Origin: Chloroflexota bacterium
GTDB lineage: Bacteria > Chloroflexota > UBA11872 > VXNJ01
Length of the DNA: 54,888 nucleotides
NCBI GenBank assembly: GCA_009840625.1
Contig: VXNJ01000001.1
Coordinates: forward strand, 663,096 to 717,983
Direction: 5' to 3'
Under the pieces are notes generated by a model. That model searched no databases. It was given only the letters and a program-made list of their open reading frames with translations, and had not been told where the DNA came from. Below, in pieces: positions 16,890 to 22,303 of the stretch. A program made the translations under genes and the position numbers. Positions within the stretch are counted from its first letter, which is position 1; the number at the start of each line of letters is the position of its first letter.

Positions 16890-17624
16890 TTGACCAGGTT
16901 GGCCACCGGCCTGGCCGGGAGGGTGGTGGGCGCGGTGCGAGATCTGCTGCCCATCTTCGCCGTTATCGCTTTCTTCCAAATCGTGGTTCTGCGGCAGCCC
17001 TTTCCCGACGTGGCCAACGTGGCGGTTGGGCTGTTGTGCGTTGTCCTCGGATTGGCGTTGTTTATCCAAGGGCTCGAAAGCGGGCTTTTCCCGCTCGGCG
17101 AGGCGCTGGCGGAGGGTATTGCCCGCAAGGGGAGCACCCTGGCGCTGGTGGGATTGGCCTTCAGCCTCGGGTTCGGGACCACCGTGGCCGAGCCGGCGCT
17201 CATCGCCGTGGCCGCCGAGGCGGCCGATGTGGCGGCGGCGGCCGGATTCATTGGCGACAGCCTGGCCGCCCAGGAGCGGTACGCGCTCGAATTGCGGCTG
17301 GTGGTGGCGTTCGCCGTCGGTCTGGCCATTGTGCTGGGAGTGTTGCGGATTCTGAAGGGTTGGCCCATCCACCGGTTCATCATCGCCGGATATGCGGTGG
17401 TCATGGTCATGACCGTGTTCGCGCCGGCGGAGATCGTAGGCGTGGCTTACGACTCCGGGGGCGTGACGACCAGCACGATCACGGTGCCGTTGATCACCGC
17501 TTTGGGGGTGGGGTTGGCGTCCACCATCCGCGGGCGCAACCCGATGCTTGACGGATTCGGGCTGATCGCGTTTGCCAGTCTCAGCCCCATGATTTGCGTG
17601 CTGGCCTACGGATTGGCCAGGTGA
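16890..17624 (+). CDS. DUF1538 membrane protein, first copy
   Basis: A 244-residue hydrophobic protein with about six to seven membrane helices. It shows DUF1538 hallmarks: [15 protein letters not shown] (56-70), [10 protein letters not shown] (95-104), [14 protein letters not shown] (187-200) and [14 protein letters not shown] (221-234). The two small-residue/Thr/Ser-rich loops look like re-entrant or substrate-lining segments of a transporter, but that is inference; the family has no function known to me. The start is a TTG at 16890. The stop overlaps the ATG of the second copy (TGATG), and the two proteins share the motifs at nearly the same positions, which suggests a heterodimer. Confidence 0.83.
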
Positions 17625-18406
17625 TGCTGGATTTCCTGGCCTTTTCCGGCGAAACCCTGTTCAATACGCTGCGCGACGTAACCCCGATCGTCGCAATCCT
17701 GGTGGTGTTTCAGGTGGGGGTGCTTCGGCGCGGGATACCGAACCTGGCGGGTATCGCCGCGGGCTCGGTCATGGTGCTGCTGGGGCTGGCACTTTTCCTG
17801 ATTGGCCTGGAACGGGCGCTATTTCCCATCGGGGAGACGATGGCCAGACAGCTTACCGAGCAAGCGGGGGCCTTCGCGGGCGCGGTTCGCTGGGAAGGCT
17901 ACTGGCTGGTTTATCTGTTCGCGGCCGCCATCGGATTCGCCACTACGGTGGCCGAGCCGTCGTTGATCGCCGTGGCGCTGAAAGCCGAGGAGGTCTCGGG
18001 TGGCGCGGTAAACGCCTGGGGACTGCGCATCGCCGTCGCGCTGGGCGTGGCCGCCGGCGTCTCGCTGGGGTGCTTTCGCATCGTGACCGGCACGCCCCTG
18101 CCGTGGTACATCCTGGCGGCCTACATCATCGTTATCGTTCAGACTTTCCTGAGCAACCGCACGATAGTTCCCTTGGCCTACGACAGCGGAGGCGTAACCA
18201 CCTCGACCGTCACGGTGCCGGTAGTGGCGGCGCTGGGGTTGGGATTGGCCGCCAGCGTACCGGGCCGCAGTCCGCTGATCGACGGGTTCGGTCTCATCGC
18301 CTTCGCCAGCGTATTCCCGATCATGTCGGTGCTAGGCTATGCCATCACCGCCGAAAGGGTGGAACGCTGGCGCGGGCGGAGACAGCGTCAGGAGGTCAAA
18401 CCTTGA
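17624..18406 (+). CDS. DUF1538 membrane protein, second copy
   Basis: A 260-residue paralogue of the preceding gene, read from the ATG at 17624 that overlaps its stop. Motifs: ALFLIGLERALFPIG (56-70), FATTVAEPSL (105-114), [14 protein letters not shown] (186-199) and [17 protein letters not shown] (220-236). The C-terminal tail RVERWRGRRQRQEVKP is basic and soluble, which the first copy lacks; it could face the cytoplasm and contact the P-II-like protein encoded next. Duplicated, motif-sharing membrane halves in tandem are common for transporters with inverted or pseudo-symmetric subunits. Function unknown. Confidence 0.83.
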   Translation: MLDFLAFSGETLFNTLRDVTPIVAILVVFQVGVLRRGIPNLAGIAAGSVMVLLGLALFLIGLERALFPIGETMARQLTEQAGAFAGAVRWEGYWLVYLFAAAIGFATTVAEPSLIAVALKAEEVSGGAVNAWGLRIAVALGVAAGVSLGCFRIVTGTPLPWYILAAYIIVIVQTFLSNRTIVPLAYDSGGVTTSTVTVPVVAALGLGLAASVPGRSPLIDGFGLIAFASVFPIMSVLGYAITAERVERWRGRRQRQEVKP

Positions 18407-19832: not shown

Positions 19833-20942
19833 TCAAATCACCTGTGCGCCCGGCAGGTCAGCCGGCCAGGAGCCGATGATCCTCACGGTCGAACACAGTG
19901 CTCCCACATCGGCGATGGCGGCGGCGACGTTGGAATCGTTGCGGTGGCCTGCGAACTCAGCGTAAAAGACGTAATCGCCCAGGACCGCGTCATGTAGCCC
20001 GCGGGCGGGTCGGGACTGCATGTTGCTCAGGTTCACGTCCCGGTTGCGCAACGCGCCCAGAACCTCGTGCAGGGCGCCGACACGATCCTTGACGGCAAAA
20101 ATCATCGCCGTGCGGTCGTTGCCGGTCGATGGATTTGAACGGTTGCCGAGCAGGAAAAACCGGGTGCTGTTGGCGGAGAAATCGTGGATGTTGCGCCGTA
20201 CGACGCTCAAGCCGTTCGCCGTGGCCGCCGCCTCCAGGCCGATCGCCGCCGATCGCGGTTCCTGGCTGGCGCGCACCGCCGCGGCGGCGGTGCTGGCTAC
20301 CTCGGATCGTTCCGCCGCGGGCAGGTTTTGGGATAGCCAGTCCTGACACTGGGCCAATGCCTGCGGGTGCGAATAGACCACCTGGATCTCCTCCAGGCTG
20401 GAGTTAGAGAGAAGGTTGTGGACGATCCGTTCCGACGTCTCGGCGATCACGTCGACCGGGTGCCGCATGAAGCCGTCGATCGAGTCGCCGACCATCCCGG
20501 CGGCGGTGTTTTCAATCGGAACGACGCCGAAATCGGCTTCCCCGCGCGACACCTGGGCGAAGATCGCGTCGATCGAGTTGACCGCCACGTAATCGGCACT
20601 TTCACCGAACACTTTGCGGGCCGCCCCATGGCTGAACGTCATTGGCGGGCCCAGATAAGCCACCTCCAGGGTTTTCTCCAGCGCCCGGCAGGCGGCGATG
20701 ATCTGGGTAAAGATCGCCGAGATCGCCTCGCCGGAGAGCGATCCGTTGGAAACCGCGATAGCACGTCTGATCACCTCGGCTTCGCGGGTGGGTACGAAGA
20801 CCGGGTCTCCGCTGGCCGACTTTTCGTGACCAACCTTGCTCACGACCGCCGCGCGATCGTCAAGCAGGTCCACGATCTGGCGATCGATCTCGTCGATCTT
20901 GAGGCGGTGCTCGGCCAGGCGCCGGTCCGGGTCGTTGGACAA
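19833..20942 (-). CDS. pheA: Chorismate mutase-prephenate dehydratase (P-protein)
   Basis: A 369-residue bifunctional enzyme of phenylalanine synthesis. Residues 1-90 are an AroQ-type chorismate mutase (HRLKIDEIDRQIVDLLDDRAA). Residues 92-270 are prephenate dehydratase, with VAYLGPPMTFSHGAA, VVPIENTAAGMV and the catalytic STRFF. Residues 280-365 are an ACT domain (VKDRVGALHEVL...NLSNMQSRP) for phenylalanine feedback. The conserved ESRP of the ACT site reads QSRP here, a possible change in effector binding. The start is TTG (20942) with only a weak GAGA-rich upstream sequence. A 63 bp space separates it from the upstream CcdA-like gene on the same strand. Confidence 0.93.
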   Translation of the reverse strand: MSNDPDRRLAEHRLKIDEIDRQIVDLLDDRAAVVSKVGHEKSASGDPVFVPTREAEVIRRAIAVSNGSLSGEAISAIFTQIIAACRALEKTLEVAYLGPPMTFSHGAARKVFGESADYVAVNSIDAIFAQVSRGEADFGVVPIENTAAGMVGDSIDGFMRHPVDVIAETSERIVHNLLSNSSLEEIQVVYSHPQALAQCQDWLSQNLPAAERSEVASTAAAAVRASQEPRSAAIGLEAAATANGLSVVRRNIHDFSANSTRFFLLGNRSNPSTGNDRTAMIFAVKDRVGALHEVLGALRNRDVNLSNMQSRPARGLHDAVLGDYVFYAEFAGHRNDSNVAAAIADVGALCSTVRIIGSWPADLPGAQVI

Positions 20943-21005: not shown

Positions 21006-21872
21006 CTAGTTTCCCGTAACCGCCTGATCGGCCGAAATCTGCCCGGCCAGATGGGCCAGGTAGACGGGGGCCAGCGGCAGTACGCACGGGGAAATGAAAG
21101 AGAGTATCCCGGCGACGAATGCCGGCACCATCCAGCCCAGATTGATCGCTTCGTTGCCAGCCATCAGGAATTCGTCGTTAAAAACCGGCACGTCGGCCAG
21201 GTAACGCGACAGCAACGCCACCAAATCAAAGGCGATGAATAGTCCGAACGCCATCAGCAGTAAGCCGGAAACGATGGCGATCGCGTTGGAGCGCCGGCTG
21301 AGCGCGGTCAAGGGGCCCTGAAGACGCTCGGTGAATGCGGCCAGGACCAGGAAAGGGACGCCCAGGCCGAGCGAGTAGGCCAGCAGCAGCAGGTAAGCGG
21401 TGGCGACCGATTCGGAGTTGTATGCCGCGGTCAGGATTCCGCCAAGAATGAAGCCGACGCAAGGGGTCCAGCCCAACGCGAAGGCCAGGCCGACCGCAAA
21501 CGACGATCGGTACCCCGATCGGCCGGTGCGGAACTCGATTTGACCCTGACGGTAGAGCGCCCCGGCCAGCCGCGCCGAGGCGGCCGCAATGGCGCGCCGC
21601 GCCCAATCGAATCTGCCCTCGCGGGCCGGGCCAGCCAGCCGGAATGCCAGCTCGCGGAACAAGCCGGTCAGGTGCAGTCCGAAGACCGCTAACGCCACGC
21701 CGGCGACGACGTTGATGATCGGACGGTAGTCGTCCACCAGGCGGCCCACGACTCCGAATGAAAACCCGGCCAGTGAAAAGAGAAGGCTAAATCCCAGAAC
21801 GAACGACAGGGCGTGGAGGATCAGTCTGGTACGCGGCGGATTCGCCGCGACTGCGGTTGAAGCGCTGGCCAT
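21006..21872 (-). CDS. CcdA/DsbD-like thiol transporter, apparently circularly permuted
   Basis: A 288-residue membrane protein with six hydrophobic helices and both CcdA cysteine motifs, but in swapped order. In ordinary CcdA the protein opens with the helix containing PCVLPL and continues LLHALSFVLGF..., then GWTPC. Here it opens after a short tail with LILHALSFVLGFSLLFSLAG (helix 2), has GWTPCVG with C138 (helix 4), and closes with GILSFISPCVLPLAPVYL (C263), the helix that should be first. Moving helix 1 behind helix 6 keeps its membrane direction. CcdA carries electrons from cytoplasmic thioredoxin across the membrane for cytochrome c maturation or thiol reduction. No PCVLP sequence is encoded upstream. 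No thioredoxin-like or ccs gene is adjacent. Confidence 0.85.
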   Translation of the reverse strand: MASASTAVAANPPRTRLILHALSFVLGFSLLFSLAGFSFGVVGRLVDDYRPIINVVAGVALAVFGLHLTGLFRELAFRLAGPAREGRFDWARRAIAAASARLAGALYRQGQIEFRTGRSGYRSSFAVGLAFALGWTPCVGFILGGILTAAYNSESVATAYLLLLAYSLGLGVPFLVLAAFTERLQGPLTALSRRSNAIAIVSGLLLMAFGLFIAFDLVALLSRYLADVPVFNDEFLMAGNEAINLGWMVPAFVAGILSFISPCVLPLAPVYLAHLAGQISADQAVTGN

Positions 21873-22018
21873 GTTCTAGGCCTCTTTGCTGAATTCGTGT
21901 GCCGACGGGCACGAGCGTTGCCACGAACGATTATCCGGGTCGGCGCGCCGAAGGTGGCCAGCTTGGTCAGAATATGTCCAGTTGACGTAGACTGCGTTTG
22001 CGGCATTTGGCCGAATAC

Positions 22019-22303
22019 ATGTCAGATCAGATCCAACCGCCCGGCGCAAGGCCCGAAAAGGCCCTTTTGGCAATCGTGGCCCACACGGTTGCCGATCGCG
22101 TCCAGCAAGCGCTGCTGGCCGACGGCTTCAGGGTCACCCGCATCAATACCGCCGGCGGATTCCTGCGCCGCGGCAACGTCACGTTCCTGGCCGGCCTGCG
22201 GGCCGACGACGTGGATCGGGCGATCGCAAAGATGCGCGACAACGCCGGCGATCGCGGCGGCTGGGTAATGGTCGCCGACCTGGGAACCATAACGCGGGTA
22301 TAG
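22019..22303 (+). CDS. Cyclic-di-AMP receptor, DarA/PstA type (P-II-like, DUF970)
   Basis: A 94-residue protein from ATG 22019. Diagnostic family segments: LLAIVAHTVADRVQQALLADGFRVTRI, then NTAGGFLRRGNVTFLAGL, matching the conserved GGFL-GN-T motif of c-di-AMP-binding P-II-like proteins. These are cytoplasmic trimers that bind c-di-AMP and signal through their B/T loops. The usual length is about 105-110 residues, so this copy is compact with a short T-loop. No diadenylate cyclase is in the window. It diverges from the CcdA-like gene and is convergent with groEL. Confidence 0.85.
   Translation: MSDQIQPPGARPEKALLAIVAHTVADRVQQALLADGFRVTRINTAGGFLRRGNVTFLAGLRADDVDRAIAKMRDNAGDRGGWVMVADLGTITRV

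Follow-up and report, generated by a model that had tools for sequence, protein, structure and literature searches.

Does the open reading frame on the complementary strand at positions 21006-21872 of the window (the whole stretch of 54,888 nucleotides of Chloroflexota DNA analysed here) encode a CcdA protein whose transmembrane helices follow a circularly permuted order? The gene starts with ATG and encodes 288 residues, with helices ordered TM2-3-4-5-6-TM1; all parts given below lie on the same strand. Behind a short basic N-terminal tail the chain opens with TM2 (about residues 17-41, 21750-21824, placed from the AF2 model and charge statistics), followed by TM3 (about residues 50-70, 21663-21725, AF2 model and profile match). 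The long basic TM3-TM4 loop (21513-21662) is predicted to be cytosolic from the AF2 model and charge statistics, and its residues 89-110 form an amphipathic-looking helix in the model. TM4 (about residues 121-152, 21417-21512) carries the GWTPC motif, the C138 codon lying at 21459-21461, and precedes TM5 (about residues 156-180, 21333-21407) and TM6 (about residues 195-216, 21225-21290), both delimited in the AF2 model. A new acidic linker, which has no counterpart in normal CcdA and is predicted to be extracytoplasmic (residues 217-244, 21141-21224), then leads to TM1 (about residues 245-279, 21036-21140, located by profiles), which bears SPCVLPL with the C263 codon at 21084-21086. TM1, the opening helix of normal CcdA, is here the last one and is followed by a C-terminal tail predicted as cytosolic on the same grounds as the TM3-TM4 loop (residues 280-288 and the stop codon, 21006-21035). 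The initial annotation had placed the PCVLPL helix, with C263, at the end of the chain and the second active cysteine at C138; both assignments hold, and W135, P137, C138, P262, C263 and P266 are invariant in 114 permuted proteins.

The Pfam model DsbD_TM (PF02683) matched the reading frame at 5.7e-11, above its cut-off. Matches to the Pfam family Bax1-I (0.043) and to the NCBIfam models ArsG and TsoB (far below their cut-offs) were rejected as evidence of membership. Helix order was assessed with a profile trained on 92 normal-order CcdA proteins. The unrotated protein matched this profile in two blocks of swapped order, model positions 40-227 at residues 9-225 (171.5 bits) and 5-38 at residues 249-282 (44.5 bits). 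Once rotated, as the initial annotation had proposed for checking the alignment to CcdA, it gave a single match over positions 5-227 with 217.7 bits, and neither of two normal-order CcdAs used as controls scored better when rotated. A profile of the permuted proteins matched the solved CcdA structure 5VKV at chain residues 3-35 and 40-212, swapped as well (E 2e-54). Homology to CcdA/DsbD_TM extends across all six helices and both redox cysteines are present (C263 in PCVLP of TM1, C138 in WTPC of TM4); the TM1-to-TM6 chain order of the family is the feature that departs, TM2-6 being followed by TM1. The homologous parts are swapped, a new linker joins the old ends and former chain neighbours have become the termini. 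The circular permutation of the helix order was thus confirmed by the rotation test, by the two-block match to 5VKV and by relatives sharing the order. The reading frame is a CcdA variant with permuted helices, filed apart from ordinary members.

An assembly error, a frameshift or a wrongly chosen start could have split a normal N-terminus from the gene, and the genomes concerned are mostly metagenome assemblies. Searching all six frames of the window with a TM1 profile, the sole match was the C-terminal end of the reading frame (8.5e-18), with no second TM1, and the gene is one unbroken frame, in line with the earlier statement that the start was not mis-chosen. Moreover, all five genomes of the host family that were examined share this order, hereafter order A, the four others being colinear at 49-52% identity. 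It is also carried by three public MAG records of Chloroflexi from the host lineage, and it recurs in independently assembled genomes of several phyla. The same order in independent genomes rules out the assembly error that the initial annotation had named as a refuter, and we consider the probability of any such artefact to be negligible. Downstream of ccdA lies a chorismate mutase-prephenate dehydratase gene of the pheA type with an ACT domain (19833-20942, complementary strand), which also follows ccdA in the three MAG records; no functional link to ccdA is known. Two other features of the surroundings were recorded. A gene for a protein of the cyclic-di-AMP receptor family (PF06153) adjoins ccdA at 21998-22303 on the forward strand, and a small gene resembling it lies near ccdA of one of the MAG records (L063). 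Two adjacent, slightly overlapping DUF1538 genes (16890-17624 and 17594-18406, forward strand) apparently form a tandem membrane-protein pair of unknown function.

The fold was predicted with AF2 from the 114 permuted sequences alone (pLDDT 81.5, pTM 0.74); a prediction from 7 sequences was discarded (pLDDT 51). The top PDB match of the model was CcdA 5VKV with probability 1.00, and the TM-scores against this NMR structure were moderate (0.42/0.52, rmsd 7.6), Foldseek aligning in chain order. The structure prediction suggested in the initial annotation thus returned a CcdA-like fold. In all orders the basic loops remain TM3-4 and TM5-6, with the loop charge pattern unchanged between them, and the TM6-TM1 linker is net acidic in order A (median length 24). 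From the unchanged loop charges and the acidic linker, the helix directions are predicted to be kept and the chain ends to have moved from outside to the cytosol. The predicted fold and charge pattern support the earlier argument that the permutation preserves every helix direction.

The initial annotation had also called for a search for the same order in related genomes. We used a profile spanning the junction TM6-linker-TM1, a full-span match indicating a permuted gene and a match to the TM1 half only a normal one. Full-span genes numbered about 25 in 400 genomes of Chloroflexota, one of which had a second permuted order (order B, below). In phyla reached through single records, the counts were 22/193 (Woesearchaeota record), 12/116 (Micrarchaeota), about 20/149 (a record titled Melainabacteria), 1/199 (Paenibacillus), 1/198 (Actinobacteria) and 0/198 (Geobacteraceae). 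Order A was also present in Aenigmarchaeota and Diapherotrites records; besides the host family, its carriers include other Chloroflexota, several DPANN groups and the phylum reached through the record titled Melainabacteria. A plasmid collection gave only partial matches to other CcdAs. Helix order read from the frames of the fetched loci, in which some genes are repeated, was A in 144, B in 9 and normal in 115. Candidates from Geobacter, Halanaerobacter, Paenibacillus and others that looked permuted by query-residue span were rejected, since their reading frames had the normal order. Two permuted CcdAs carry extra hydrophobic helices (about 60-100 residues) between TM3 and TM4 (L222, 1599-2660, complementary strand; L226, 1007-2146, forward strand). 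An actinobacterial sample contains a very divergent permuted CcdA-like protein (L207, 907-1743, forward strand), with SCIGCIGP replacing WTPCIGP in TM4 and PCFFP in TM1.

Order B, TM4-5-6-linker-TM1-2-3, is kept in 7 genomes of one Chloroflexota order, in 8 distinct copies (L250 at 1498-2313 on the complementary strand, L251-L256 and L266). Its cut point maps to the TM3-TM4 loop, and its TM6-TM1 linker is longer and more acidic (median length 30). The copies match that of genome G308 colinearly at 61-73% identity and, after rotation, their nearest normal-order relatives at 61-65%. One of these relatives comes from the family of G308, in which G308 has order B and G1479 the normal order. A comparable switch was found in the phylum of genome G401, reached through the 'Melainabacteria' record, where we compared 4 permuted and 4 normal ccdA genes at about 54-55% identity between the two forms. 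The gene lgt was listed as a neighbour in 7 of the 8 and tgt nearby in all 8, with lspA and rluD between ccdA and tgt where frames were resolved. Of all the signs that the permuted protein is orthologous to the normal one and stands in for it, this shared lgt/ccdA-lspA-rluD-tgt locus is the strongest.

To what extent the scatter of permuted forms reflects repeated events was addressed with a careful, unrooted tree computed from rotated sequences (100 rows by 229 columns). On this tree, order A required 8 changes, 6 of them forced by well-supported branches, and order B formed one clade beside normal relatives. Order A could have arisen once, or twice, and then spread by descent and gene transfer, the scatter being due to transfer, reversals or tree error. 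Transfer does occur, a Bacillota copy (L181) nesting inside Chloroflexota. In addition, holding together the host family and the Anaerolineae-type clade, both within Chloroflexota, was not rejected (p-AU 0.456), so these two may share one permutation event. Against so few origins, uniting the host family with the clade of the G401 phylum was rejected (p 0.0085), and holding all A-forms together was worse by 267 log-likelihood units (p-AU 2.3e-8), in tests whose groups, that for the single origin included, were chosen after viewing a first tree and whose tree included one very divergent normal-order row (L148_N). Nor can transfer account for the scatter of A-forms, because the tree is a gene tree, and order B represents another cut and nests next to relatives of normal order. 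Under the model used, a single origin of order A is thus rejected, gains and reversals being indistinguishable without a root, and we regard one or two origins as improbable. It is instead likely that CcdA was permuted several times independently, by at least 4 events and probably more, into 2 orders and sometimes at an orthologous locus.

Both new cuts fall in predicted cytosolic loops, and in the normal, A and B orders one chain end always lies beside TM1 or TM4, which likely points to rules governing the permutations that a helical membrane protein can tolerate. CcdA is built of six helices in two inverted repeats, and TM1 and TM4 are the postulated moving elements of an elevator mechanism (PMC7329351). 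A chain end beside TM1 or TM4 may keep one of them mobile, but we offer this as a hypothesis only, because 4 of the 6 possible cuts would give the same result.

Concerning function, the one DsbD_TM locus found in the host genome is the permuted ccdA, the genome being about 97% complete, so that a second CcdA could be missing from it. Contig C8 of the same genome carries an operon for cytochrome c maturation, comprising CcmAB-type, CcmC, CcmE, CcmF and CcmH genes together with one for a WCVPC thioredoxin-like protein. The thioredoxin of the Ccm system depends on CcdA or DsbD for its reductant. Since the genome has this operon with a thioredoxin, and since no other CcdA or DsbD was found in it, the permuted CcdA is probably the membrane thiol-reductant transporter of the host, and the genomic context is consistent with outward electron transfer to thioredoxin-like partners. 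A paralogue that derives from CcdA but serves a different purpose, for instance as a metal or small-molecule exporter, would fit the position of the host-family gene, which adjoins pheA and not redox genes. It would also fit the matches to the ArsG efflux permease model, which lie below threshold and show the closeness of such transporters to the family. However, the active-site cysteines with their proline and tryptophan surroundings are invariant in the 114 permuted proteins, a ccm operon accompanies the sole DsbD_TM locus found in the genome, and redox neighbours occur in several other lineages. In three DPANN loci (L066, L092, L100) the permuted gene comes immediately after a thioredoxin-fold gene whose start resembles that of a lipoprotein, and is followed by another thioredoxin-fold gene. 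In Anaerolineae it adjoins DsbA-like and TlpA-like genes (L067) or lies behind a TlpA-like (L140) or a CcmC-type gene (L097). We therefore consider a different job to be quite unlikely. Counts of WCxxC and CXXCH neighbours did not separate the orders, and a fused WCxxC domain was found in one normal frame and in no A or B frame, which makes no rule. DsbD carries fused extracytoplasmic domains, unlike the permuted frames; its transmembrane domain is homologous, with the same cysteine-bearing helices and, as we infer, the same outward electron role.

We estimate at roughly 90% the probability that this protein is a genuine CcdA with a circularly permuted chain, very probably working as CcdA, in a family permuted repeatedly in at least two forms (TM1 moved to the end; TM1-3 moved to the end). 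The cut lies in the TM1-TM2 loop, on the cytosolic side, and the new extracytoplasmic TM6-TM1 linker connects the former ends. With all helix directions kept, the same bundle could close with both chain ends in the cytosol. In the mechanism that we propose, the cysteine pair on the two mobile helices (Cys263 of TM1, Cys138 of TM4) would accept electrons from cytosolic thioredoxin and pass them outward to thioredoxin-like proteins, probably a CcmG/TlpA-like protein of the ccm operon. The permutation probably proceeded through a tandem duplication and a later loss of outer helices, a route that agrees with the new linker and with cuts on the cytosolic side and that has been proposed for VKOR/DsbB (PMC4555120). 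Duplicated intermediates with TM1 at both ends, for which the initial annotation had proposed a search, were absent from about 268 classified CcdA reading frames, and such forms may be short-lived. Frames of 320-350 residues with weak junction matches, from DPANN and one Chloroflexota genome, were rejected, being paralogues of normal order that have one additional helix at the N-terminus. These paralogues (L293-L299), most of which also have an extra C-terminal helix, show WTACLGP or WSACLGP in TM4 in place of WTPCIGP.

Compared with CcdA (PF02683, 5VKV), the permuted protein shares the six helices, both cysteine motifs, the helix directions, the predicted fold and a genomic setting among genes for cytochrome c maturation or for thioredoxin-like proteins. 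It differs by its chain running from TM2 to TM1, by the acidic TM6-TM1 linker and by its ends, both predicted to be cytosolic, whereas those of normal CcdA are extracytoplasmic. VKOR and DsbB are likewise membrane thiol-redox helix bundles linked by circular permutation, in a 2015 paper that presents itself as the first to report such a case for distant alpha-helical membrane proteins (PMC4555120). That case concerns two distant families and a structure-based argument (PMC4555120), whereas here one family shows clear sequence homology, the identity between orders reaching about 65%, and offers several events, 2 permuted orders and orthologues that share a locus. No description of a circular permutation of CcdA or DsbD was found in the open-access papers searched, in line with the initial annotation, to which none in the family was known; of the alternative that it might be a common, described subfamily, only the first part applies, order A being fairly common.

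Beyond what the initial annotation had recognised, CcdA has been permuted recurrently and occurs in a second permuted order. The permutation also explains the weak, piecemeal matches of these proteins to family models, and linear domain models can miss permuted CcdAs. Natural circular permutation is hardly documented in polytopic alpha-helical membrane proteins. As the family offers several events, two permuted orders and close relatives of normal order at a shared locus, permuted and normal pairs at about 55-65% identity make membrane insertion, folding and the tolerance of chain reordering directly testable in this family.
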